DNA of 64,000 nt from Halorientalis regularis (GTDB lineage: Archaea; Halobacteriota; Halobacteria; Halobacteriales; Haloarculaceae): contig NZ_JALJCL010000009.1 of the NCBI RefSeq assembly GCF_023698535.1, positions 1 to 64,000 on the forward strand, given 5' to 3'. The position numbers were made by a program, and so were the translations under genes. Shown piece by piece: positions 1,513-44,469 of the stretch. Numbering within the stretch: the first letter of the stretch is position 1; every line of letters begins with the position of its first letter. The notes under the pieces were generated by a model. The model saw only the letters and a program-made list of their open reading frames with translations, was not told the origin of the DNA and did not search any database.

Positions 1513-4437
1513 TTAGTCGCGGCGGCGGACTGCCAGCAGCGCAGCGGCGACCAGCGCGACAAGGGCGAGGGCGGCCGTGAAGCCGGGCCCGTCTGCGGTG
1601 GTCGTCTGCTCTTCGGTGTCCGCAGGCGCGTCCGTGGTTTCCACGGGTTCTTCCGTGGTGTCCATCGGCTCTTCCATGGTGTCGGTCGGCTCAGGCTCCG
1701 GCTCCGGCTCCGGCGTTGCCGTCTCGGTCGGCTCCGGTTCCGGTTCCGGTTCCGGTTCCATGAGTTGGTCGCCAGTCACCTGGAAGCTGCGGATGTCGGA
1801 GTTGTCACCGACACTCGCTTCGACCGTGTAGTTGCCCGGTTCGACACCTTCAGTGGGGATCTCGACGCTCCACTGGCCATCAGTACCCCACACGTCCGTC
1901 GACTCGATGTCGAAGGAACTCGAGCTGGGGCCTTCGATGACTTCCACCGTGATGGTGTTGTCGTCAGGCTGGCGGTTGGTCACACCCGAGACCGTCATCG
2001 TGTCGTTGGTCTCGACCGTGAACGCCTGCCCGGCTTCACCGGTCACGGAGTCAACGCTCACGCGGCCTTCCGTGAAGCGGAACTGGAAGACCTCGGAGAT
2101 GTCGTCGCTGCCAGTGTCCTCAACAGTCTCACTGGCGACCGTGTCAATAACCTGCTGCTGGGTGAGCGACTGCGCGTTCAGCCCCTCTGCAAATGCGGGG
2201 AAACTGTTACGCGGGAATTCGCCGTCACCAGCCTGGCCGTCACGACCCGAGGAGAACACGGACATGACGACGTTGCCCTGGCTCAGTTCAGTGTCGACCT
2301 CATCGACTTCGGACAGCCCAAACTGACCCATGTCGATACCGGCGAAGCCAAGCTCGTCATAGATGTTGCCGCCGACATAGACACTCTCAGAGTCGAACGT
2401 ACCGTCCGAATCGACACTGACAGTGGTCCGGTCGTAGGTGCCGCGCGGGCCGTAGAAGCTCACGCTGACAGAGTCTTGACCAGGTGCGGTCCCGTTGATC
2501 GTGATGCCGGTCCCAGCGTCTTCCGTCGCAACCTGGCCGTTGATGACGCTGACGTAGTCAACCGTCAGTTCAGTATCCGTCACGCGCAGTGAGGACTGCT
2601 GGCCAACGGCGCTACTAACCTCAGAGGAAGTCAGCGTCGCGTCAGCCGTTCCGTCATCGTCCGTGTCGACATCCTCGTCGTTGGCGTCCACCGCAGCGAT
2701 CCGGTAGGTGCCGGGGATGCTGAGGACATCAGCGCCGTTGACACTGCTGAGGACGACATCTTCTTCCTCAAAGGTGTCGTCACCGTCAACGTTGTAGGTG
2801 TCCAGATACTCGAAGTCACCTTCGTCGCGAGCGTAGAGTGCGACCTCTTCGATACCCGGAGCGGTCGACCCATTGACAGTGACTTCAGAGCCAACGACGT
2901 AGGTCCCCTGCGGGTTGTCCAGGGTCACAGACCCTTCGTTAACCTCGAAGGAATCATCGTCGATTTCGTTCTGCTCTGCGACATCGATCGTACTCAGGTC
3001 GTCGCCGCTGTTGGCGACACCTGCGGCGTACACCGTGATATCGACGTCGGTCGTATCGAGTTCAGACGTGCTGATACTACCGACACCGACACCGTCGTCA
3101 ATCTCGACCAGCGCGACGGCCTGCTCGTCGTCGGACGTACCGGTGTCAAGCGTGTCGCCGACGTTCCGGAAGACACTCGCGGCGTCGCCAGTGATGTCGC
3201 CGCCCTCGATGGCGACAAGGTGGGTCTCACCTTCGGCGGAGTTGCCGATCTCGAACTGGACGTTCTCACCGCGGGTGACGGAGTCGGCCTGTGCTTCGAT
3301 GGAGGCTTCCTCGCCAGTCGTGACGTCGAACGTCACACTCTGGGTAGCCTCACCGAAGTCAAGGTCTTCGTCACCTTCGACAGTCACGGTGTATTCCTCG
3401 TTGTCGAGGGCGTCCTCATCCAGTGAGAAGGTGAGTTCACCGTTATTCGAACGAACCGGATCGTTCGCAGGGTTTTCCAGCACTTCGTCGGTCACTTCCA
3501 GACCCGAGGAGTCCTCAACAGTAACATCTAGACGCTCAGCATTCTGGAAGTTATATTCGGCGTCGATTGTCAGTTCGGTCTGATCGTCGACGTTGACCGC
3601 ACCACCAGCGATGTCATCACCGTTCTGGTTGGTGACTTCAAGAGTCGTGACGCGCGGAGTCTGAACAGTGACCGTGTCACCGCCGGTTCCGATCTGGTAA
3701 CTACCGGTCGGCTGATCGGTGGGGACAGGGAACACCAACGGCTCGCCTTCAGCACTACCGCCAGTCCGTTCGTAGGAGCTAACAGTGTTGGAGGCGAACT
3801 GGATGTCTTCCTCGCCCTGGAAGATGGTCTGGCCGTTGTCACCGATGGTCCCGCTGCTGTCAGCAATATCGTAGGTACCAGGACCAGCACCACGGTCGAT
3901 GTTCGGACCCTGAATGTCGAGCGTCAGGGTTCTCGAGATGTCCGATACGCCTGCGTCATTGTAGTCAACACCAACTGACACAGAGGTCGGACTTGACGGC
4001 GAGGGGAAATCAACCGTGATCTGACCACTGATGACCAGATTATGGGTTTGAGTGTTTGTGCTATCCCCAGGGCTCAGACTAACCGTCAGCGTGGAGGTGC
4101 CCACACCGGTCACGGAGTCTGGGGTGATCGTTTCTCCAGATGTGGCGTTGACAATGTTGACCGTATTGGGGCCAGCATTGTCGAAGATTGCACTTCCGGG
4201 TAGTGAAACCTTGAAAGTGTCAGTCGCGCCATCAGTCTGGACACTGTCTGCATTTAGTTGATAGTCATGCGTTACAGTCGCATCCGAGTTAACGTTCGTT
4301 GGGTTGAGCGAAAACGAACTACTCGAATTCGCTGCCGCAGTCGCTGTCCCAGCGAACGCGACGGTCCCAGCGAAGACGCTGGTTACCATCAGCGCAGTCA
4401 GGAACAGACTGCGAAGCTTCGTTTTTGTGCTTGTCAT
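1513..4437 (-). CDS. csg: S-layer glycoprotein (major cell surface glycoprotein) with PGF-CTERM anchor
   Basis: This 974-residue secreted protein should form the surface lattice of the cell. The N-terminus (MTSTKTKLRSLFLTALMV, then AGTATAA) is the conserved signal peptide of haloarchaeal surface glycoproteins. The body is acidic, beta-rich and carries Asn-Xaa-Ser/Thr sites. Residues about 890-945 are a Glu-Pro and Thr-rich spacer, typical of the O-glycosylated membrane-proximal stalk. The C-terminus is a PGF-CTERM signal: the PGF motif, a hydrophobic helix, then RRRD. Archaeosortase ArtA is known to process such ends before lipid anchoring. Length and layout match known csg genes. The gene is monocistronic, with a hairpin and T tract after the stop. 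A tnpB element sits only 306 bp upstream, so its distal promoter region may have been altered. Sugar-nucleotide genes near 49-59 kb may supply its glycans (inference). Confidence 0.93.
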   Translation of the reverse strand: MTSTKTKLRSLFLTALMVTSVFAGTVAFAGTATAAANSSSSFSLNPTNVNSDATVTHDYQLNADSVQTDGATDTFKVSLPGSAIFDNAGPNTVNIVNATSGETITPDSVTGVGTSTLTVSLSPGDSTNTQTHNLVISGQITVDFPSPSSPTSVSVGVDYNDAGVSDISRTLTLDIQGPNIDRGAGPGTYDIADSSGTIGDNGQTIFQGEEDIQFASNTVSSYERTGGSAEGEPLVFPVPTDQPTGSYQIGTGGDTVTVQTPRVTTLEVTNQNGDDIAGGAVNVDDQTELTIDAEYNFQNAERLDVTVEDSSGLEVTDEVLENPANDPVRSNNGELTFSLDEDALDNEEYTVTVEGDEDLDFGEATQSVTFDVTTGEEASIEAQADSVTRGENVQFEIGNSAEGETHLVAIEGGDITGDAASVFRNVGDTLDTGTSDDEQAVALVEIDDGVGVGSISTSELDTTDVDITVYAAGVANSGDDLSTIDVAEQNEIDDDSFEVNEGSVTLDNPQGTYVVGSEVTVNGSTAPGIEEVALYARDEGDFEYLDTYNVDGDDTFEEEDVVLSSVNGADVLSIPGTYRIAAVDANDEDVDTDDDGTADATLTSSEVSSAVGQQSSLRVTDTELTVDYVSVINGQVATEDAGTGITINGTAPGQDSVSVSFYGPRGTYDRTTVSVDSDGTFDSESVYVGGNIYDELGFAGIDMGQFGLSEVDEVDTELSQGNVVMSVFSSGRDGQAGDGEFPRNSFPAFAEGLNAQSLTQQQVIDTVASETVEDTGSDDISEVFQFRFTEGRVSVDSVTGEAGQAFTVETNDTMTVSGVTNRQPDDNTITVEVIEGPSSSSFDIESTDVWGTDGQWSVEIPTEGVEPGNYTVEASVGDNSDIRSFQVTGDQLMEPEPEPEPEPTETATPEPEPEPEPTDTMEEPMDTTEEPVETTDAPADTEEQTTTADGPGFTAALALVALVAAALLAVRRRD

Positions 4438-34978: not shown

Positions 34979-36494
34979 GATTCAGCGAGAGAATCCCGTC
35001 CTTTCCGTGAGGGGCGAGTGTTCCGACACTTGTTGTCGGAACCGAAGACCGAATAGGGCGGGAGTGAATCGCGCAAGCTCCGGTGAGGGGCCGTCACTGC
35101 TTCGCTCGGCTGGATATTCAACGTCGACACGGAATCATTAAGTAATTGTACTGTCATTGTCTATGTATAGTGAATCTGGTCACCACACGCACCATTACAG
35201 CGGCGCTCACAAACGACCGTGAGGGTGTCATACAAGACCTAGATTCACTCACCCGTTCCGGCAGTAAAATTTGGAACGTTGCTCGGTGGACTGCTGGCCG
35301 CATCTGGGACGCAACCGGTGAAATACCCGAGGAAGGACCGCTCAAGTCCTACATGACAAACCAACCGTGCTGGAAAGATTTGAACGCCCAATCAAGTCAG
35401 GCAATCGTCGAAGAATTGGCTGGCGCTTTCCAGTCCTGGTTCGAACAAGACAACCCAGACGCCAACCCACCGGGCTACCGCAAAGACGGCGACGAACGAC
35501 CACGTTCAACAATCACGTTCAAAGAAGACGGATTCAAACTCGACACGAAACACCAGCAAGTCCGCCTCTCCAAAGGCAAAAACCTGAAAGACGGGTGGAG
35601 CGACTTCATCCTTTGCGAATACGACACCGGGCCAGACGCAGACCTGACTGCTGTCGAAGACGTACAACAGGTCCGCATCGTCTGGAACGGCGACCACTGG
35701 GAACTCCACTTCGTCTGCAAAGTCGCCATCAACGCCGCCGACTCGTCTGGCGAGAAGACGGCTGGTGTTGACCTCGGCATCTGCAACACTGCCGCTGTCT
35801 CTGTCGGTGACGAAACCGTGTTGTATCCGGGGAACGCTCTGAAAGAAGACGCCCACTACTTCCGCCAGGAAGAATACAATACAGAAGGGGAAAACGGCCC
35901 CAGCACACATGCTGAGTGGGCACGCCAGAAGAAATCTCGGCGGCAGACCCACTACCTGCACGCACTCTCGAAAGACATCGTGGACCAATGTGCAGATCGT
36001 GGTGTGGAGACGATAGCGGTCGGGCATCCAAAGGACATTCGTGCGGATGAAGACTGGGGGCGGCACGGGAACAAGCGCCTGCACGACTGGGCGTTTGATA
36101 CGCTGATTCAGCACATCGAGTACAAGGCTGAAGAACGTGGTATCGAGGTGGAACAAGTTGATGAGTACGAATTGGCTACGTCGATAACGTGCTGTGCGTG
36201 TGGGGCGAAAGCGGATTCAAACCGTGTTGAACGTGGCTTGTACGTGTGTGAGAACTGCGAACTGGTCGCTAACAGCGACCTGAATGCGGCGGAGAATATG
36301 CGAGCAACGGTAACTCCGAATCCAGAGATGGATAGGAGTAACGGCTGTCTGGCCCAGCCATCGGTGCGACTGTTCGACAAGTCAACGGGGCGAATCGCCC
36401 CACAAGAACAGGTCTACCCGTAGACCAGCAAATATCCCAACGCTTGCGGTGCGGTTTCGGGAAGCCTCGCCGTTTACCGCGGGGAGGAGGTCAC
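34979..36494 (+). mobile_element. tnpB-only IS200/IS605-family element, intact tnpB
   Basis: The right end has the hairpin CCTCGCCGT...GCGGGGAGG and ends TCAC at 36491-36494. The left end contains hairpins near 35020-35045 (GTTCCGACA/TGTCGGAAC) and GGCTGGATATTC near 35110, a string shared with the left end of the element at 6741. The left boundary is set by the restored host frame and is uncertain by a few bases. Confidence 0.7.
35170..36423 (+). CDS. tnpB: TnpB-family RNA-guided nuclease, variant RuvC subgroup, intact
   Basis: GTG 35170 is chosen because the residues after it (NLVTTRTITAALTND) align with the start of the homologue at 6867; a TTG at 35146 is the longest alternative. The protein has about 417 residues. 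Visible marks are RuvC-I GVDLGICNTAAV, zinc ribbon CCACG/CENCE and last Asp in NSDLNAAENM. The RuvC-II position has Gly-His (IAVGHPKDI) where most TnpB have Glu-Asp/Asn. An acidic pair before the zinc ribbon (QVDEYELATS) may supply the glutamate. Reported Fanzor-like proteins show such a shift. It is the only open member of this subgroup here. The right end downstream should give its omega-RNA. Confidence 0.9.
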   Translation: MNLVTTRTITAALTNDREGVIQDLDSLTRSGSKIWNVARWTAGRIWDATGEIPEEGPLKSYMTNQPCWKDLNAQSSQAIVEELAGAFQSWFEQDNPDANPPGYRKDGDERPRSTITFKEDGFKLDTKHQQVRLSKGKNLKDGWSDFILCEYDTGPDADLTAVEDVQQVRIVWNGDHWELHFVCKVAINAADSSGEKTAGVDLGICNTAAVSVGDETVLYPGNALKEDAHYFRQEEYNTEGENGPSTHAEWARQKKSRRQTHYLHALSKDIVDQCADRGVETIAVGHPKDIRADEDWGRHGNKRLHDWAFDTLIQHIEYKAEERGIEVEQVDEYELATSITCCACGAKADSNRVERGLYVCENCELVANSDLNAAENMRATVTPNPEMDRSNGCLAQPSVRLFDKSTGRIAPQEQVYP

Positions 36495-37348: not shown

Positions 37349-40300
37349 ATGGATCCGGACGAGCTACCGGTGAAAAAAGACAGACAGCAACCGGACGCGA
37401 TCCAGGTTCGCCCCGCTGAAACCGCCCTCTCACCACGCGCCGCCAGCAACCAAGCCAAGCAGTTCCACGGCCTGAGCAAGGGCCGTCTCCCGGATGGGAT
37501 CACCCACAAACTCGCCCGGGCGCTCGACATGGGCGAGGCTCCGCCGTGGATCGAATGCCAGATCCGCTCCCGGGGAACCGACGCACTCGAATACTGCTTT
37601 AGCATCGAAGATGTCGACGACAGCGGGCTCGATGTACTCGAAACCAGCCTCCGGACGCTGTTTCCGGACGAGTACGAACTCAGGCGCACGTATCGGGAGA
37701 ATCTCGGTGTCACCCATCTGCCGCAGGACGCCGGTGACGATTGGTACGTCGCCGGCGTCGAGTACGTCGGGGAAGCCGACCGCCGCCGGGACTGGCAAAC
37801 CCGACTGGAACCGTTCGCGACGAGTGACCGGACCCACCAGCAGACACAGGACTACAACAGCCACCACACGGGTCAGAACGACCACGAACACAGCCCGCTC
37901 ACGACGATCATCGAGACGATGGCGAGGAGTTCCCTGCCAATGGTCTATCAGGTCCTCTTTCGCCCCCTCGACAACTGGCACCGGGCAGCCGACGGCCGGA
38001 TCGAAGCCATCGAAACCGGGACCGATACGCTCTGGGGCCAGCTCAGCAAGTTCCGCGAAGTCGACCTCGACCGAGTGGATCTCTCCCAGTCCGACCGGCA
38101 ACGCCGGGCCGATATCCAGACCCGGGCGTCGGCCCACTCCTTCGCCGTCAATGCCCGGGCAGCCGCCTTCGCCCCGGCCGACGGGTCCCACCGTGCCGAC
38201 CACGTCGCCACCCAGTTGCAGTCGGCCTTCAGTCACATCAGTGGCGAGTTCCACACCGTCACCGGTCGTGTCCGGACCGACGACGACGGGCATCTGGTCC
38301 CTGCCGGCCGGGAACTGCTCGGTGCCATCCACAAACGCGCGTTCTACGAACCGACCTACCAGCGCCCAGAGACGGCAGTGCCGCTCACGGCCAACGACAG
38401 CCGTGGGATCGTCGTCGACCACCAGGAACTCCCCCACTTCTTCGCGGTCGACGGTAACCAGCTCACGCCGGACGCGCGCCGTGCACTCGAAACGATCCCC
38501 GAAGACCAGACCTCGATTACGCTTCCGCCCAAATCGGTATTAGCCCAGTACCGCCAGCCCGGCCTCGCCATCGGTGCACCCCAAACCAACGACGGGACGA
38601 CGGCCGACCCGATCGCCCTGCCACCCAGGGTGCAGACCCGCAACGTGGCGTGGGTCGGACAGACCGGGACCGGAAAGTCGACGAGCCTCATCACCGCGGC
38701 CCTGGAAAACCACCAGGCGACTGACGGCCCGGAGATTGTCTTTGACCCGAAGGGTGGGCGGATGACCGACGAGTATCTCCGCTGTCACTACGCCAAATTC
38801 GGGGACCTGGAGGATGTCATCTACTTCGACTGTGCGGAGTGGCTGCCTGCCATCTCGTTTTTCGATGTCAAACCCGACCTCGAGGCTGGTGTCCCCCGCA
38901 ACGTCGCCGTCCAGGACCGGATCGGGCACTACCAGGAGATCCTCCGCCAGCTCATGGGTGCCGAGCAGTACGATAACGCCGTGGAGTCGACGGATATGAT
39001 AGAGGACATGCTCCGCGCCTTGTACGATCCGATCCACGGGCGCGATGTCGTCACGAACCGGGGCCTAAGACAGGCACTCGAACGGTTCCGGGGTCGCAAA
39101 TCGCCGCCCGCCGTCAGCAATCCCGACCTTCGAGACCGTCTCCAGGGCGCGATCGAAAACGACGACAAAGACATATTCAAGAAGGTCATGAGCGGCGCGG
39201 TGAATCGCGTGGATGAGGTGGCCACATCGCCCCATCTCAGCCGCGTGTTCAATCACCGACCGAGCGGCATCGAGGCCGACCAGCCAACCTTCGACTTCGC
39301 CGACTGGCTCGACGAGGACGTGATTATTCTCTTCGATACCGGACGGCTCCAGTCCGAGGCCAAGCGCGGCCTGACGCTCGTCTTGCTGTCGAATCTCTGG
39401 TCTGCGCTTCGGCGGCGTCGTCGCCGGAACGTCGACGTCACCCTCCCGCTCGTCAATGTGTATCTGGAGGAGGCCGCCGACGTTGCAAACGGGGATTTGC
39501 TCGCCGAACTGCTCGCCCAGAGCCGCTCGTTTGGCTGTGCGCTGGTCCTGGCGATGCAATTCCCCGGTCAGCTCGAAGCTACTGATTCGGAACTGTATCA
39601 GGAACTGTTGAACAACGTCGGCACGTACGTCACCGGCAAGATCGGTGTCGATCACGATCTCGCACATCGCTACGCCACCGAAGCGATGGGGCGGGAGTCG
39701 ATAGCGAACCGCCTGCGCGGACTCTCGGCCGGTCAGTGGCTCGTCGATCTTCCCGGTGTATTTCAGGGTCGCAATCCACGGCCACTGATGGCCGAGTCAC
39801 TCCCCCTTCCGGAAGGCCATCCCGACCGTTCGGATGGTGGACCGGACCCTGAATTCACTGCGGCACACGACGACCTGCTCGAATGGACGAAACGGGACTT
39901 CGGCCTGTCGGTCGATGCGACTGCCACGGAGTCAGCCGAGGGATCGACGGCGGGGGACGTTGGTGATCCGTGGCAATCAGAGGATGGACCAATCGGTGCC
40001 GAAGTCGACCGCGAGCGAGCGGGCGGTCCGGCCGGTGAGACAGCTCCCGAGGAGCAGGGCGAGATGCCACCGATCCTCGCTACCACCAGCCGGATGCCCT
40101 CGTTTCTCAGGTACACCGCCGACAGTGACGCCCTGGAGTGTACGACCTGTAACAGCCGATTCGATTCCACAGCCGACGGGCTGCGGACGGCGATCCAGTG
40201 CTGTCACGATCTCGACAGCGTGGATCTGGACGACGTGCCCATCTGTAGCTGCAACGTGACGCTGAGTCCCGAGGAGGTCCAGGCCAGCAAGTGGTCACGG

Positions 40301-41092
40301 CGACAGCTCACGTTTCTACAGGCAGTCCACAACGCCCAGCAGCGGCGGTACGATCGGATCGAATACGACATCGTCCACGACAGTATGGTCCGGCTGAAAG
40401 AAGACGTCGGGATCGACCAGGAGGAAATCGACGACCTCCTCGATGCCGGGTTACTCCGCCACGACGGCGACCATCCCCAACGGTACTACACAGTGACGCC
40501 AGCGGGCCGTGACGCGATCGGCGAGGAGTTCCAGGCGGGCGTCGATTTCGGCCACGGGAAAGGCGACCTCGACGAGTCCAGCCAACACGTCGCGATGATC
40601 GAGGTGAGTGCCCGGTGGCTCCGACAGGAGCGCGTCGCCGACCCCGACTGTCCCGATGTCGAGGTCGTCACCTACTACGAAGTCCGCGAAGGGAGTGCCG
40701 ACGCTGCCGCGTTCATGGGTGGTGATGATGACACGACCGTCGAGAATCTCGAACAGCGTCGACTGGACTGTGTGACTCTCGACGAGACCGGTGACGTCGT
40801 CGTGGCTGTCGAGGCCGAGCGGATCAACCACGATGTCACCCGTGCTGTTCCGGAGGACTACGACAAGATGGCTGCCTGTGATCCCGAGGAGGCCATCTGG
40901 GTTGTTCTGAGCCAGGCCGATGGACACGACATTCTCGAAGCACTCAACGACCCACCGGAGGGAGAGCCCCGCGTCGGGAAGACGTACAGCTCGACCACGC
41001 CACCACAGCAGTTCCGGATCGACCAACCCGGACTCACCGCGATCTATCCGATGACCTGGCTCCAGCGACAGGTGCAAGACGATTCCCGATAG
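37349..41092 (+). CDS. VirD4/TraG-like conjugation ATPase (HerA/FtsK superfamily) with zinc and winged-helix tail
   Basis: This 1247-residue ATPase probably pumps or couples DNA for transfer. An N-terminal region of about 430 residues has no motif I know. Walker A (VAWVGQTGTGKST) is near residues 434-446, followed by EIVFDPKGGRMTDEYL. Walker B (VNVYLEEAADV) is near 702-712 and the sensor-like QSRSFGCALVLAMQFP near 730. The C-terminal part has Cys pairs (CTTC, CCHD, CSC; about 930-970) that could bind zinc, a winged-helix segment near 990-1060 and an acidic end domain. The family resembles archaeal T4SS coupling ATPases on plasmids and integrated elements. It follows a long hairpin and precedes MazEF. 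No relaxase or VirB4 gene is in view. Confidence 0.82.
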   Translation: MDPDELPVKKDRQQPDAIQVRPAETALSPRAASNQAKQFHGLSKGRLPDGITHKLARALDMGEAPPWIECQIRSRGTDALEYCFSIEDVDDSGLDVLETSLRTLFPDEYELRRTYRENLGVTHLPQDAGDDWYVAGVEYVGEADRRRDWQTRLEPFATSDRTHQQTQDYNSHHTGQNDHEHSPLTTIIETMARSSLPMVYQVLFRPLDNWHRAADGRIEAIETGTDTLWGQLSKFREVDLDRVDLSQSDRQRRADIQTRASAHSFAVNARAAAFAPADGSHRADHVATQLQSAFSHISGEFHTVTGRVRTDDDGHLVPAGRELLGAIHKRAFYEPTYQRPETAVPLTANDSRGIVVDHQELPHFFAVDGNQLTPDARRALETIPEDQTSITLPPKSVLAQYRQPGLAIGAPQTNDGTTADPIALPPRVQTRNVAWVGQTGTGKSTSLITAALENHQATDGPEIVFDPKGGRMTDEYLRCHYAKFGDLEDVIYFDCAEWLPAISFFDVKPDLEAGVPRNVAVQDRIGHYQEILRQLMGAEQYDNAVESTDMIEDMLRALYDPIHGRDVVTNRGLRQALERFRGRKSPPAVSNPDLRDRLQGAIENDDKDIFKKVMSGAVNRVDEVATSPHLSRVFNHRPSGIEADQPTFDFADWLDEDVIILFDTGRLQSEAKRGLTLVLLSNLWSALRRRRRRNVDVTLPLVNVYLEEAADVANGDLLAELLAQSRSFGCALVLAMQFPGQLEATDSELYQELLNNVGTYVTGKIGVDHDLAHRYATEAMGRESIANRLRGLSAGQWLVDLPGVFQGRNPRPLMAESLPLPEGHPDRSDGGPDPEFTAAHDDLLEWTKRDFGLSVDATATESAEGSTAGDVGDPWQSEDGPIGAEVDRERAGGPAGETAPEEQGEMPPILATTSRMPSFLRYTADSDALECTTCNSRFDSTADGLRTAIQCCHDLDSVDLDDVPICSCNVTLSPEEVQASKWSRRQLTFLQAVHNAQQRRYDRIEYDIVHDSMVRLKEDVGIDQEEIDDLLDAGLLRHDGDHPQRYYTVTPAGRDAIGEEFQAGVDFGHGKGDLDESSQHVAMIEVSARWLRQERVADPDCPDVEVVTYYEVREGSADAAAFMGGDDDTTVENLEQRRLDCVTLDETGDVVVAVEAERINHDVTRAVPEDYDKMAACDPEEAIWVVLSQADGHDILEALNDPPEGEPRVGKTYSSTTPPQQFRIDQPGLTAIYPMTWLQRQVQDDSR

Positions 41093-41231: not shown

Positions 41232-41582
41232 TCACAGACCGAGACTGTTTTTGATCGCAGCATCGATCTTCGCCATTCGCGTCGCCGGCACCGACCCGAT
41301 ATTCTTCGTGACACGGTTGCTAATATCGACAACACAGATCTGACTGAGATCGGCCACCGAATCGTGGTTGAGAGTAGTGTTCGAGGCAAGGACTTCCACC
41401 TCGAACGGGTAGATGTCAGTGGGATCGTACTGCTTCGTGAGGGGGGCGACGATCGTCGTTGGGGAGTACTGGTTGCCAACGTCGTTTTGAATAACGACAC
41501 AGGGCCGATTCGAACCCTGTTGCTCACTCCCCTTTGTTGGATTCAATTCGACAGTGACGATGTCTCCGCGACGCACCTTCAC
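41232..41582 (-). CDS. mazF: MazF/PemK-type toxin (mRNA interferase)
   Basis: The 116-residue protein starts KVRRGDIVTVELNPTKGSEQ, the family's conserved first strand. RPCVVIQND follows, then the loop YSPTTIVAPLT and the C-terminal helix RMAKIDAAI. MazF enzymes cut mRNA at short sites and are held inactive by MazE. The gene lies 3 bp after the AbrB-type antitoxin gene at 41586-41855 in the same direction, the usual order. It probably stabilises the neighbouring conjugation-type module (inference). Confidence 0.9.
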   Translation of the reverse strand: MKVRRGDIVTVELNPTKGSEQQGSNRPCVVIQNDVGNQYSPTTIVAPLTKQYDPTDIYPFEVEVLASNTTLNHDSVADLSQICVVDISNRVTKNIGSVPATRMAKIDAAIKNSLGL

Positions 41583-41585
41583 AGG

Positions 41586-41855
41586 TCACTCGCCCCACTC
41601 CGGAGCATCCCCCAGTCGCTCGGTTGCTTCTGCTGACGTTCCGTCCATCTCTTCGACCAGCTGCCGAGACCGGTCTGCTCGTTTCTTGTATCCTTCCGCT
41701 AAGCGCTCTTCGTCCGTCGGTGGCTTGATCACGATCTCGTCGTTAACCTCGACGAACCTGATCTCGTCGCCACCTTCGATCCCGCGGCGGTCGCGGAGTT
41801 CTTTCGGGATGGTGACTTGCCCCCGCTCACCGACTTTCCGGGTATGTTCTGCCAT
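41586..41855 (-). CDS. mazE: AbrB/MazE-type antitoxin
   Basis: The 89-residue protein starts with the SpoVT/AbrB swapped-hairpin DNA-binding fold (RKVGERGQVTIPKELRDRRG, then DEIRFVEVNDEIVI). It ends in a flexible acidic helix (SRQLVEEMDGTSAEATERLG) that should wrap the toxin. It would bind its own promoter upstream of 41855 and neutralise the MazF encoded 3 bp downstream. Both genes look intact. Confidence 0.88.
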   Translation of the reverse strand: MAEHTRKVGERGQVTIPKELRDRRGIEGGDEIRFVEVNDEIVIKPPTDEERLAEGYKKRADRSRQLVEEMDGTSAEATERLGDAPEWGE

Positions 41856-42602: not shown

Positions 42603-43169
42603 ATGCCCCAGTCCTGGGACGAATTTCGCGACGACATCGCGTCCGGTGATGCAGAGCGTGTCAACCCCGTCATCGAGGAGATTAGTGCGTGGGACATCGA
42701 CGAGCGCGTTCGATCGTTCGAGGACTTGTTCGACGGTCTGACGACGCTGTACGGGGCGAGTGAAGACGGCTACGTGCGACAGTCCTGTGTCCGCGTCGCG
42801 TCCGAACTCGCGCCCGGACTCGCGGCCGCGGTCAACCTGCAAGACGAGCAGACAGCGAGCCCGGATCGAGAGACCGTCGTGGACCAGACGGATGCGCTGT
42901 GTGGGTTCTTTCTCGAAGCGGTGACCGACGAGGACGGCCGGGTCCGACAGTCGGCCAAGCAGGGACTGCAGGACGTCTTCCGGACCTACGACACACTCGA
43001 CGAGCGCGACACGATCGAAGCGGTTCGGGCAGAGCTGGACGAGATGGCCACACGATACGACGGCAAACGGCGGGAGCATCTCGAAGAAGCCAGGCGGACC
43101 GCAAACGCCAGCCTCGACTCGCCCCTCACGCGGATGGTTCAGGATGTTGCCGAACAACTCGACAAGTGA
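42603..43169 (+). CDS. HEAT-repeat-like helical protein of unknown function
   Basis: The 188-residue, strongly acidic protein is all-helical. Repeats of the form EDGYVRQSCVRVASELAPGL and EDGRVRQSAKQGLQDVF about 70 residues apart look like HEAT units. The C-terminus (REHLEEARRTANASL) is a single helix. HEAT proteins act as scaffolds. It has its own start after the palindrome-rich region. The next gene lies about 200 bp on, behind a separate TATA box. I know no characterised relative. Confidence 0.7.
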   Translation: MPQSWDEFRDDIASGDAERVNPVIEEISAWDIDERVRSFEDLFDGLTTLYGASEDGYVRQSCVRVASELAPGLAAAVNLQDEQTASPDRETVVDQTDALCGFFLEAVTDEDGRVRQSAKQGLQDVFRTYDTLDERDTIEAVRAELDEMATRYDGKRREHLEEARRTANASLDSPLTRMVQDVAEQLDK

Positions 43170-43236
43170 ACCGGCAGCAGTGTCCCACGGGAGTACAGTT
43201 CCCCTCGTGAGCGAGGACCGCACCGGCAGAAAGCAC

Positions 43237-43242
43237 TTATAA
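43237..43242 (+). promoter_or_regulatory. TATA box of the RNA-ligase operon
   Basis: TTATAA stands out in a GC-rich context. Transcription should begin about 25 bases on, near 43264-43268, which leaves a leader of about 100 nt before the first start codon at 43365. Confidence 0.6.
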
Positions 43243-43263
43243 CCGTGACGGAAATCCGAAGAC

Positions 43264-43364
43264 ATGTCTCGGCCGCTGGTCGGACACCCACGCGTCCGGT
43301 GAGCGGTTCGCGCGACCGCCTTCCCGGGCCGTAGCGGGCTGCGTCTCCGGACGCGTGGATCACT
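43264..43364 (+). ncRNA. Candidate structured leader RNA (three-way junction) of the RNA-ligase operon
   Basis: A perfect 12-bp stem pairs CCACGCGTCCGG (43288-43299) with CCGGACGCGTGG (43347-43358). It encloses two small hairpins, GCGGT/ACCGC (43303-43319) and CCCG/CGGG (43323-43338). The long stem ends 6 nt before the ATG at 43365, so it should affect ribosome access. It could be a regulatory leader, a separately processed RNA, or a substrate of the ligase encoded downstream. The fold is seen by eye; no known RNA family is recognised. Confidence 0.5.
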
Positions 43365-43604
43365 ATGAACGAGGAAGATCGCCTTCGACGGGAGTTGCGC
43401 GCAGCGCGCGAGGAACTGGTCCGCAAGCAGTCCCGCAGCGCTGGCCCGGACGAATCCGAGAGCCGGCTGCCGCTGATGCCCGATCGGGACGAGCAGTTCC
43501 TCCGGCTGGCGTTGATGTCCGTCGACGAACTCGAAACGCACGTCGAACGACTGGAGCGAGACCGCGAGGACCTGCAGAGCGGTCTCGACCACCCGGAGGA
43601 GTAG
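43365..43604 (+). CDS. Short coiled-coil protein encoded with an RNA ligase
   Basis: The 79-residue protein begins with a charged helix (MNEEDRLRRELRAAREELVR) and ends in a second one (VDELETHVERLERDREDLQS), joined by a Pro-rich turn (SRLPLMPDRDE). Heptad spacing in both suggests a coiled coil. ATG 43365 follows the structured leader by 6 nt. The ligase start codon lies one base after its stop, so the two are translated together. It may be a partner or dimerisation factor of the ligase; this is inferred from gene order only. Confidence 0.7.
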   Translation: MNEEDRLRRELRAAREELVRKQSRSAGPDESESRLPLMPDRDEQFLRLALMSVDELETHVERLERDREDLQSGLDHPEE

Positions 43605-43605
43605 C

Positions 43606-44469
43606 ATGAAACAGTTCCCGTCGATCCCACGAGTCGCGAACGCCCCGGACGGCCTCTTCGACAGCGGTCACCTCTGGCTGCTCGAAAAGGTCGACGGGGC
43701 GAATTTCCGGTTTCAGCTCCGCCAGTCCGGCCAGTTGCGGTTCGGCGATCGGAGTCGCGTCTACGAGACGCCGGACGACGTTCCCGACCCGTACCAGCAC
43801 GCCGTTCGGCACGTCCGGGCGGAACTGGACCGACACGCGCTCCGGGAAGCAGTCGACGAGGTCGAAACGGTCGTGTTCTTCGGCGAAGCGATGCATCAGC
43901 ACGCGATCGACTACGACTGGGAGTGGGCGCCGTCGTTTCTCGGCTTCGATGTCTGGTCGGCAACCGACGAGCAGTTCCTCCCACCGGACACGGTCGAACA
44001 GATCTTCGAGCGCCTGGGGCTCCAGCCGGTGAACGCCGTCGAGCGCGAACGCAACGCGCGGGATTTCGACCCCGAATCGTACACCGTCCCGCAATCGGCG
44101 TGGTACGACGGTCCTGCGGAGGGTGTCGTCGTCCGGAACAAGCAGGGCCAACGCGCGAAACTCGTCCACCCGAACTTCCGGGAGGTCGACGACACGGTTC
44201 CCGTCGACGGGTCGGCGTCGGAACTGGCAGAGAAGTACGCGACTCGACGCCGGTTCGAGAAACTCGCGGCCAAGTTCGAGGACCGAGAGCAGACGGTGAC
44301 GTTCCAGCCCTTCTACGAGCAGGTCCTCGAGGACATCGTTCGGGAGGAGCACAGACGGCTCTACCACGGCGAGCAGTCCGTGGATACGAGCGAGCTCCGC
44401 TCCGAGGTGGCCGCGCGGACGCGAGCCTTCCTCAACGACAGGCGCGACCAGGGAGAGACCGACTCATAA
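43606..44469 (+). CDS. ATP-dependent RNA ligase, Rnl2-like
   Basis: The 287-residue protein has the nucleotidyltransferase motifs of the T4 Rnl2 branch. Motif I is EKVDGAN with Lys28 as the AMP acceptor, and Arg lies nearby. Motif III is VVFFGEAM, motif IV EGVVVRN and motif V RAKLVHPNF. The C-terminal 90 residues form a small helical domain. Such enzymes seal nicked or broken RNA. It is shorter than the archaeal Rnl3 type (about 380 residues), so it is a different class. It follows a coiled-coil protein and a structured leader. Substrate is unknown; repair of tRNA or of the leader itself are possibilities. Confidence 0.85.
   Translation: MKQFPSIPRVANAPDGLFDSGHLWLLEKVDGANFRFQLRQSGQLRFGDRSRVYETPDDVPDPYQHAVRHVRAELDRHALREAVDEVETVVFFGEAMHQHAIDYDWEWAPSFLGFDVWSATDEQFLPPDTVEQIFERLGLQPVNAVERERNARDFDPESYTVPQSAWYDGPAEGVVVRNKQGQRAKLVHPNFREVDDTVPVDGSASELAEKYATRRRFEKLAAKFEDREQTVTFQPFYEQVLEDIVREEHRRLYHGEQSVDTSELRSEVAARTRAFLNDRRDQGETDS

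Follow-up and report, generated by a model that had tools for sequence, protein, structure and literature searches.

A hairpin leader overlapping a tiny upstream reading frame in haloarchaea resembles a switch that reads ribosome state

A 79-aa coiled-coil gene (cc) and an RNA ligase gene of Halorientalis regularis are preceded by a structured leader whose hairpin overlaps a tiny upstream open reading frame (uORF), which gives it the look of a switch that senses the state of the ribosome. Comparison of haloarchaeal sequences shows that promoter, uORF, hairpin and cc gene constitute a conserved unit, and, judged from covariation, the leader fold is one long hairpin, P1-P2-P3. We lean towards reading this leader as a cis-acting leader-peptide translational attenuator that governs the cc protein and any RNA ligase encoded behind it. 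To our knowledge, structured leaders in salt-loving archaea rarely read ribosome state. The stretch analysed (the window) comprises 64,000 nucleotides, positions 1 to 64,000 of contig NZ_JALJCL010000009.1, and the elements of the locus in it are the following.

43227-43242, forward strand: BRE and TATA-like promoter motif CAGAAAGCACTTATAA, conserved
43264-43302, forward strand: leader-peptide uORF, ATG to TGA, encoding MSRPLVGHPRVR before the stop; start and stop kept across leaders
43288-43299, forward strand: P1 helix, 5' strand, covariation
43303-43311, forward strand: P2 helix, 5' strand, immediately after the uORF stop, covariation
43312-43332, forward strand: P3, with GCG/CGU pairs, an ACC bulge at 43315-43317, GCC/GGC pairs and a variable apical loop
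43334-43342, forward strand: P2 helix, 3' strand, preceded by bulged A43333, covariation
43347-43358, forward strand: P1 helix, 3' strand, ending 6 nt before the cc AUG, covariation
43365-43604, forward strand: cc gene for a 79-aa coiled-coil/helical protein, always directly behind the hairpin
43606-44469, forward strand: 287-aa ATP-dependent RNA ligase (PF09414) with an intact EKVDG motif

The first-pass annotation had described a TATA box, a structured leader in which a perfect 12-bp stem closes two hairpins in a three-way junction, and a coiled-coil gene and a ligase gene in tight order. The stem is present (43288-43299 with 43347-43358), as is the gene order, with the 79-aa ORF at 43365-43604 followed by the 287-aa ligase at 43606-44469. 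A BRE/TATA-like motif is likewise found at 43227-43242, while the conserved uORF at 43264-43302 that overlaps P1 had been overlooked. The three-way junction is not borne out, as the two inner hairpins pair in 77.3% of cases against 77.5% in shuffles and lack covariation. The 144-nt leader has a predicted energy of −67.3 kcal/mol compared to a shuffle mean of −54.4 (z −3.3), and none of 200 dinucleotide shuffles was as good. Relative to Halorientalis persicus and H. salina, which are among the nearest same-genus relatives of the window genome, the leader is nearly invariant from about position 43264, whereas the sequence immediately before the promoter has diverged. The cc homologues in eight family genomes have the same hairpin upstream with different stem sequences. 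In a sequence-only MAFFT alignment of eight sequences, 97.2% of the P1 and P2 cells were paired, with seven double-change pairs and 0/500 shuffles as good; with 29 sequences the long hairpin reached 98.7% paired cells and 56 double-change cells (again 0/500 shuffles as good), compared to 22-48% in slide controls. RNAalifold predicts P1 and P2 unprompted from the 29 sequences. The covariance check suggested for the leader has hence been run, and its strong covariation confirms a real and conserved structured element.

Conservation is unevenly distributed along the hairpin. The sequence of P2-P3 is conserved, with that of P3 recognisable from Halorientalis through Haloferax, while P1 varies freely through compensatory change. 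Across the family, about 5-10 nt separate the end of P1 from the cc AUG wherever the fold leaves this stretch unpaired, and the cc start codon itself lies outside P1. The conserved bulges within the helices (ACC and A) would suit a small-molecule or ion riboswitch with its pocket in P2-P3. As the leader has no match to a known RNA family in Rfam at or above the gathering score, the genes downstream have no metabolic theme and the uORF would go unexplained, we find a riboswitch barely credible. Two further candidates were rejected: a pseudoknot between GGUCG in the uORF and CGACC in P3 (89% paired, no covariation, 205/500 shuffles as good), and rRNA mimicry, for which only chance-level short matches were seen to the contig with the window genome's partial rRNA operon.

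The promoter motif stands upstream of every strong covariance-model match, and the exact pattern CAGAAAGYAYTTAY, present at the promoter described here, has no second occurrence anywhere in the genome. In nearly all leaders 24-25 nt separate the TATA core from the uORF AUG that follows it, suggesting that the transcript is probably leaderless. Among 30 non-identical leaders, the uORF ATG is kept in 28 within variable flanks; its three columns are identical in 30, 28 and 29 leaders, and the column entropy is 0-0.42 at the ATG compared to mostly 1.2-1.9 on either side. The stop occupies the same site in 27 of the 30 (TGA 23, TAA 3, TAG 1), the single TAG being created by a 1-nt deletion through which the stop would otherwise have been lost. 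This stop falls exactly between P1 and P2, and the last four sense codons are the 5' strand of P1. The uORF has 12-13 codons across the family; in Halorientalis and genome G073 it is exactly one codon shorter, with the TATA motif shifted along. The canonical uORF is missing in 6/30 close leaders, with the start lost in H. marina and G306, an early stop in G241, and the stop lost in Salinibaculum, G142 and Halospeciosus. In the stop-less leaders L154, L041 and L165 the frame extends to a conserved CCG-TAG at P3, which reads as if it were a second uORF stop.

The uORF dN/dS is about 0.8-1.0, and three genomes of other families with divergent cc homologues (G156, G430 and G417), whose RNA copies match the covariance model weakly (31.2, 26.9 and 21.6 bits), keep the AUG, the stop at the P1/P2 junction and the hairpin while encoding unrelated peptides of 11-13 codons (MVVTPVAPSLF, MQIRTTVVPLSP and MRSQMTMDLSSGD, respectively). 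Thus, it is the uORF frame and its position relative to P1 that are conserved, not the peptide. A nascent-chain arrest peptide was therefore rejected, as purifying selection on the peptide was not found, and the dN/dS values likewise leave a specific arrest peptide or codon sensor unsupported.

Two structural features of a leader-peptide attenuator are present: a short ORF ahead of the gene, its start and stop both conserved, and an mRNA stem, supported by covariation, whose 5' strand makes it incompatible with a ribosome on the uORF. Because the 5' strand of P1 consists of the last uORF codons, a ribosome there and a closed P1 are mutually exclusive. In the mechanism that we propose, the uORF would be translated from a leaderless message whose transcription begins at its AUG or right beside it. 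P1 would be kept open by a ribosome that has reached the second half of the uORF or its stop, allowing translation or reinitiation at the cc AUG and then at the coupled ligase AUG, which in the window starts 1 nt after the cc stop codon. With the ribosome absent or held at the beginning of the uORF, P1 would close beside the cc AUG and translation would be reduced. The conserved P2-P3 is probably a protein-binding site, perhaps for the cc protein itself. Known properties of Haloferax volcanii provide a setting for such steps, with 72% of its protein-coding transcripts leaderless (PMC4983044), termination-reinitiation coupling documented for haloarchaeal gene pairs (PMC6728339) and Shine-Dalgarno motifs not needed (PMC3986360). 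When the last uORF codons were blocked in silico, accessibility of the cc start rose in 18 of 30 leaders and fell in one, lending the mechanism moderate support across the family; the mean was 0.31 for the free leader, 0.30 with the uORF start blocked, which gave no rise, and 0.45 with the stop blocked. The window's own leader gave no such support, being unchanged (0.38 to 0.38) since its released GC-rich strands re-pair in silico.

The closest known devices are bacterial leader-peptide attenuators such as the erm leaders and toiL-topAI (PMC12121999), in which a short translated ORF likewise overlaps an mRNA stem, the stem closes beside the start of the next gene, and ribosome position would set the stem. 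In contrast to these, the element described here is archaeal, lacks Shine-Dalgarno masking and has a probably leaderless uORF, whose stop lies exactly between two helices and whose peptide is not conserved, and its output is often an RNA ligase. On the two structural features given above, the leader can be likened to bacterial uORF attenuators such as toiL, rather than being an established member of their class. For H. volcanii, uORFs of 15-31 codons in long leaders have been listed with no mechanism given (PMC4983044). No comparable system was found in Rfam or in the literature searched; as most subscription journals lay outside that search, this is weak evidence.

The partner of the leader is the cc gene. 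The leader was found by covariance model in 22 of 391 class genomes (a count that includes a degenerate copy in G271), and a cc alignment search of the same 391 genomes returned close cc homologues (E below 1e-30) in these 22 and no others. The co-occurrence of RNA and cc gene proposed as a check is thus perfect, 22/22. A protein search found close cc homologues in 8 of 146 family genomes. Carriers include Halorientalis, Halorubrum, Natronococcus, Salinibaculum, Haloferax, Halarchaeum, Halospeciosus, Saliphagus and a Halocatena plasmid. Among the 391 genomes there is no confident leader copy away from a cis cc gene; weak model matches in G447, G130, G087, G137 and G110 were dropped, as they come without promoter, uORF or cc gene. 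Viral carriage of the unit was rejected on searches of viral contigs, which held no cc homologue and 64 core-pattern matches, none a convincing match to the model. A known anti-phage defence system was likewise rejected, as PADLOC-DB gave no match. At a second locus of Halarchaeum acidiphilum (L168, about 3900-4010) the promoter and the uORF start are left while the whole hairpin and the cc start codon are deleted; the deletion is followed by the cc frame and then by a 356-aa ligase.

The perfect co-occurrence and the fixed adjacency would also be expected of a protein-binding autoregulatory leader, in which the cc protein (or the ligase) would bind P2-P3, make P1 more stable and repress the mRNA that encodes it, with the uORF merely delivering ribosomes. 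A P2-P3 sequence that is kept while P1 varies is what a recognition site on a mere stem should look like. However, autoregulation leaves the retention of uORF start, stop and frame unexplained, and the cc protein has an overall acidic composition and shows no known RNA-binding fold; its model is helical and of low confidence (pLDDT 73.8), and it matches no family in Pfam, NCBIfam or PADLOC. We therefore hold autoregulation to be unlikely, albeit the strongest of the rivals to the attenuator.

The gene behind the unit is often an RNA ligase, of more than one kind. The 287-aa ligase belongs to the RNA ligase superfamily by its sequence, matching PF09414 with E 3.5e-19 and 70 bits against a gathering score of 27 and carrying the KxDG motif; it follows cc in the window, H. 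persicus, H. salina, Natronococcus and G336. A ligase of about 356 aa (lig356), also PF09414, takes this place in many Halorubrum and others, and the two stand in tandem in H. salina and G336, and in H. persicus with a broken second copy. In G073 cc is directly followed by an RtcB paralogue; G077 and G142 also have one, in convergent orientation to lig356. The association that had been supposed between leader, cc and ligase is far above chance: lig356 occurs in 11 of the 22 genomes with the element compared to 21 of 369 without it (Fisher p 7e-8). In several Halorubrum loci (e.g. L108 and L121) an extra ORF of about 89 aa (MxLTxNTIYRHDE...), with no family known, sits between cc and lig356.

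Neither the 287-aa nor the 356-aa ligase matches TIGR01209, the model of Rnl3 and the HARP partner ligase, consistent with the first-pass view that the ligase is not Rnl3. Its label "Rnl2-type" stands at the level of fold and not of sequence, with 18.9 bits against the TIGR02307 cut-off of 197.15, far below what that equivalog demands. In the AlphaFold model (pLDDT 85.7), residues 1-197 best match T4 Rnl2 and nick-sealing ligases (Z about 17, rmsd 2.6-2.8 over about 180 residues), with archaeal Rnl3 scoring lower (Z about 12-14). The ligase shares the adenylation domain fold (Z about 15-17 over about 180 residues) and the KxDG motif with the T4 Rnl2, Naegleria and trypanosome nick-sealing enzymes, but differs from them in its 13-22% identity, 287-aa length, helical C-terminal part and score below TIGR02307. 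The HARP-Rnl3 pairing (PMC12153264) likewise joins a patchy, salt-associated RNA ligase to a partner gene; here neither ligase matches TIGR01209 and the partner is an unrelated helical protein. In five orthologues of the 287-aa ligase (L020, L022, L024, L026 and L027) the catalytic lysine of KxDG is replaced (TELIDGA, LEYVDGA, QELLDGA), and these are apparently inactive ligases in genes that are still open.

The first-pass annotation had offered two roles for the leader, a substrate of the neighbouring ligase or a feedback switch, and the second fits a cis-acting leader. Adjacency in Halorientalis and at many Halorubrum loci would favour the substrate role. Yet G253 and G373 keep the leader and cc gene with neither ATP-dependent ligase matching anywhere in the genome, which weakens it, and lig356 has decayed behind an intact leader in G078, G152, G327 and G434; other genes stand behind the distant copies. 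G043 also lacks a match to either ligase anywhere in its genome, and carries RtcB paralogues elsewhere. The divergent members (G156, G430 and G417) precede other proteins or ones that we take, from our own reading of the sequence, to be PQQ-repeat-like, and none of the three ligases was matched near them. The ligase is thus a frequent passenger rather than an obligate partner of the leader/cc unit. The earlier idea had been staked on covariation in the stem and on the leader standing beside orthologous ligases: the covariation is strong, whereas the leader is missing beside most orthologues of the 287-aa ligase, which matches in 73 of the 146 family genomes against 8 for the leader. The other lig356 loci have neither leader nor cc gene upstream. 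The substrate role is unsupported, and we judge it very improbable.

A related reading has the leader released as a discrete, possibly circular, non-coding RNA working with the cc protein and the ligase, whereby a cut at the foot of P1 would free a cc mRNA with almost no leader. Ro/Y-RNA modules sit beside RtcB in bacteria, and the compact conserved structure, the short distance from P1 to the cc AUG and the presence behind the module of RNA ligases of three kinds, the RtcB paralogue among them, would be in keeping with it. It would be strange for such an RNA to carry a translated AUG at its 5' end and a stop between P1 and P2; the lack of a confident copy apart from a cis cc gene and the absence of the ATP-dependent ligases in G253 and G373 also count against release, which we consider improbable.

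For the attenuator, translation stress such as cleaved or scarce tRNA would be the natural candidate signal, because devices of this class read ribosome position, RNA ligases are a frequent output here, and broken tRNAs elicit a response from bacterial Rtc operons (PMC7790460); this is the least certain step, drawn by analogy. A tRNA-damage signal would suit an output of RNA-joining enzymes. The RtcR-controlled rsr-yrlBA-rtcBA RNA repair operon (PMC7790460) similarly brings an RNA ligase together with structured RNA, but induction by broken tRNAs, shown there, is only conjectured for the present leader. There, a CARF-domain activator senses tRNA ends and the Y RNAs are separate products, whereas here the RNA is an mRNA leader and no such regulator or Y RNA is seen beside the locus. 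That a leaderless uORF threaded through the hairpin senses ribosome stalling brought on by tRNA damage or shortage, and turns on RNA-repair ligases along with their helical partner, is accordingly put forward as a tentative possibility. If true, it would define a new class of archaeal regulatory leader and a post-transcriptional counterpart of the bacterial RtcR tRNA-damage response. The element combines a structure backed by covariation with a conserved uORF and a defined partner gene, and it occurs in several haloarchaeal families, among them species of Haloferax, to which the genetic model H. volcanii belongs. This allows direct tests of uORF-dependent regulation in archaea and of how haloarchaeal RNA ligases are regulated and what purpose they serve.

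The surroundings of the locus hold several other features. Directly upstream of the leader is a gene for a 188-aa HEAT-repeat-like protein (42603-43169, forward strand), whose place is conserved in the two nearest species. A MazF-like toxin (PF02452, 108.7 bits) and a MazE-type antitoxin (PF04014) are encoded on the reverse strand at 41232-41855, about 1.4 kb before the leader; that a toxin which cuts mRNA lies next to an RNA ligase operon may be coincidence. A 1247-aa protein with a TrwB/TraG-type coupling-protein domain (37349-41092, forward strand) hints that the ligase operon lies in or near an integrated mobile element. Finally, the Rfam family sot0042 (RF02656) matches at 36308-36485 on the forward strand with 88.6 bits, compared to a gathering score of 88.
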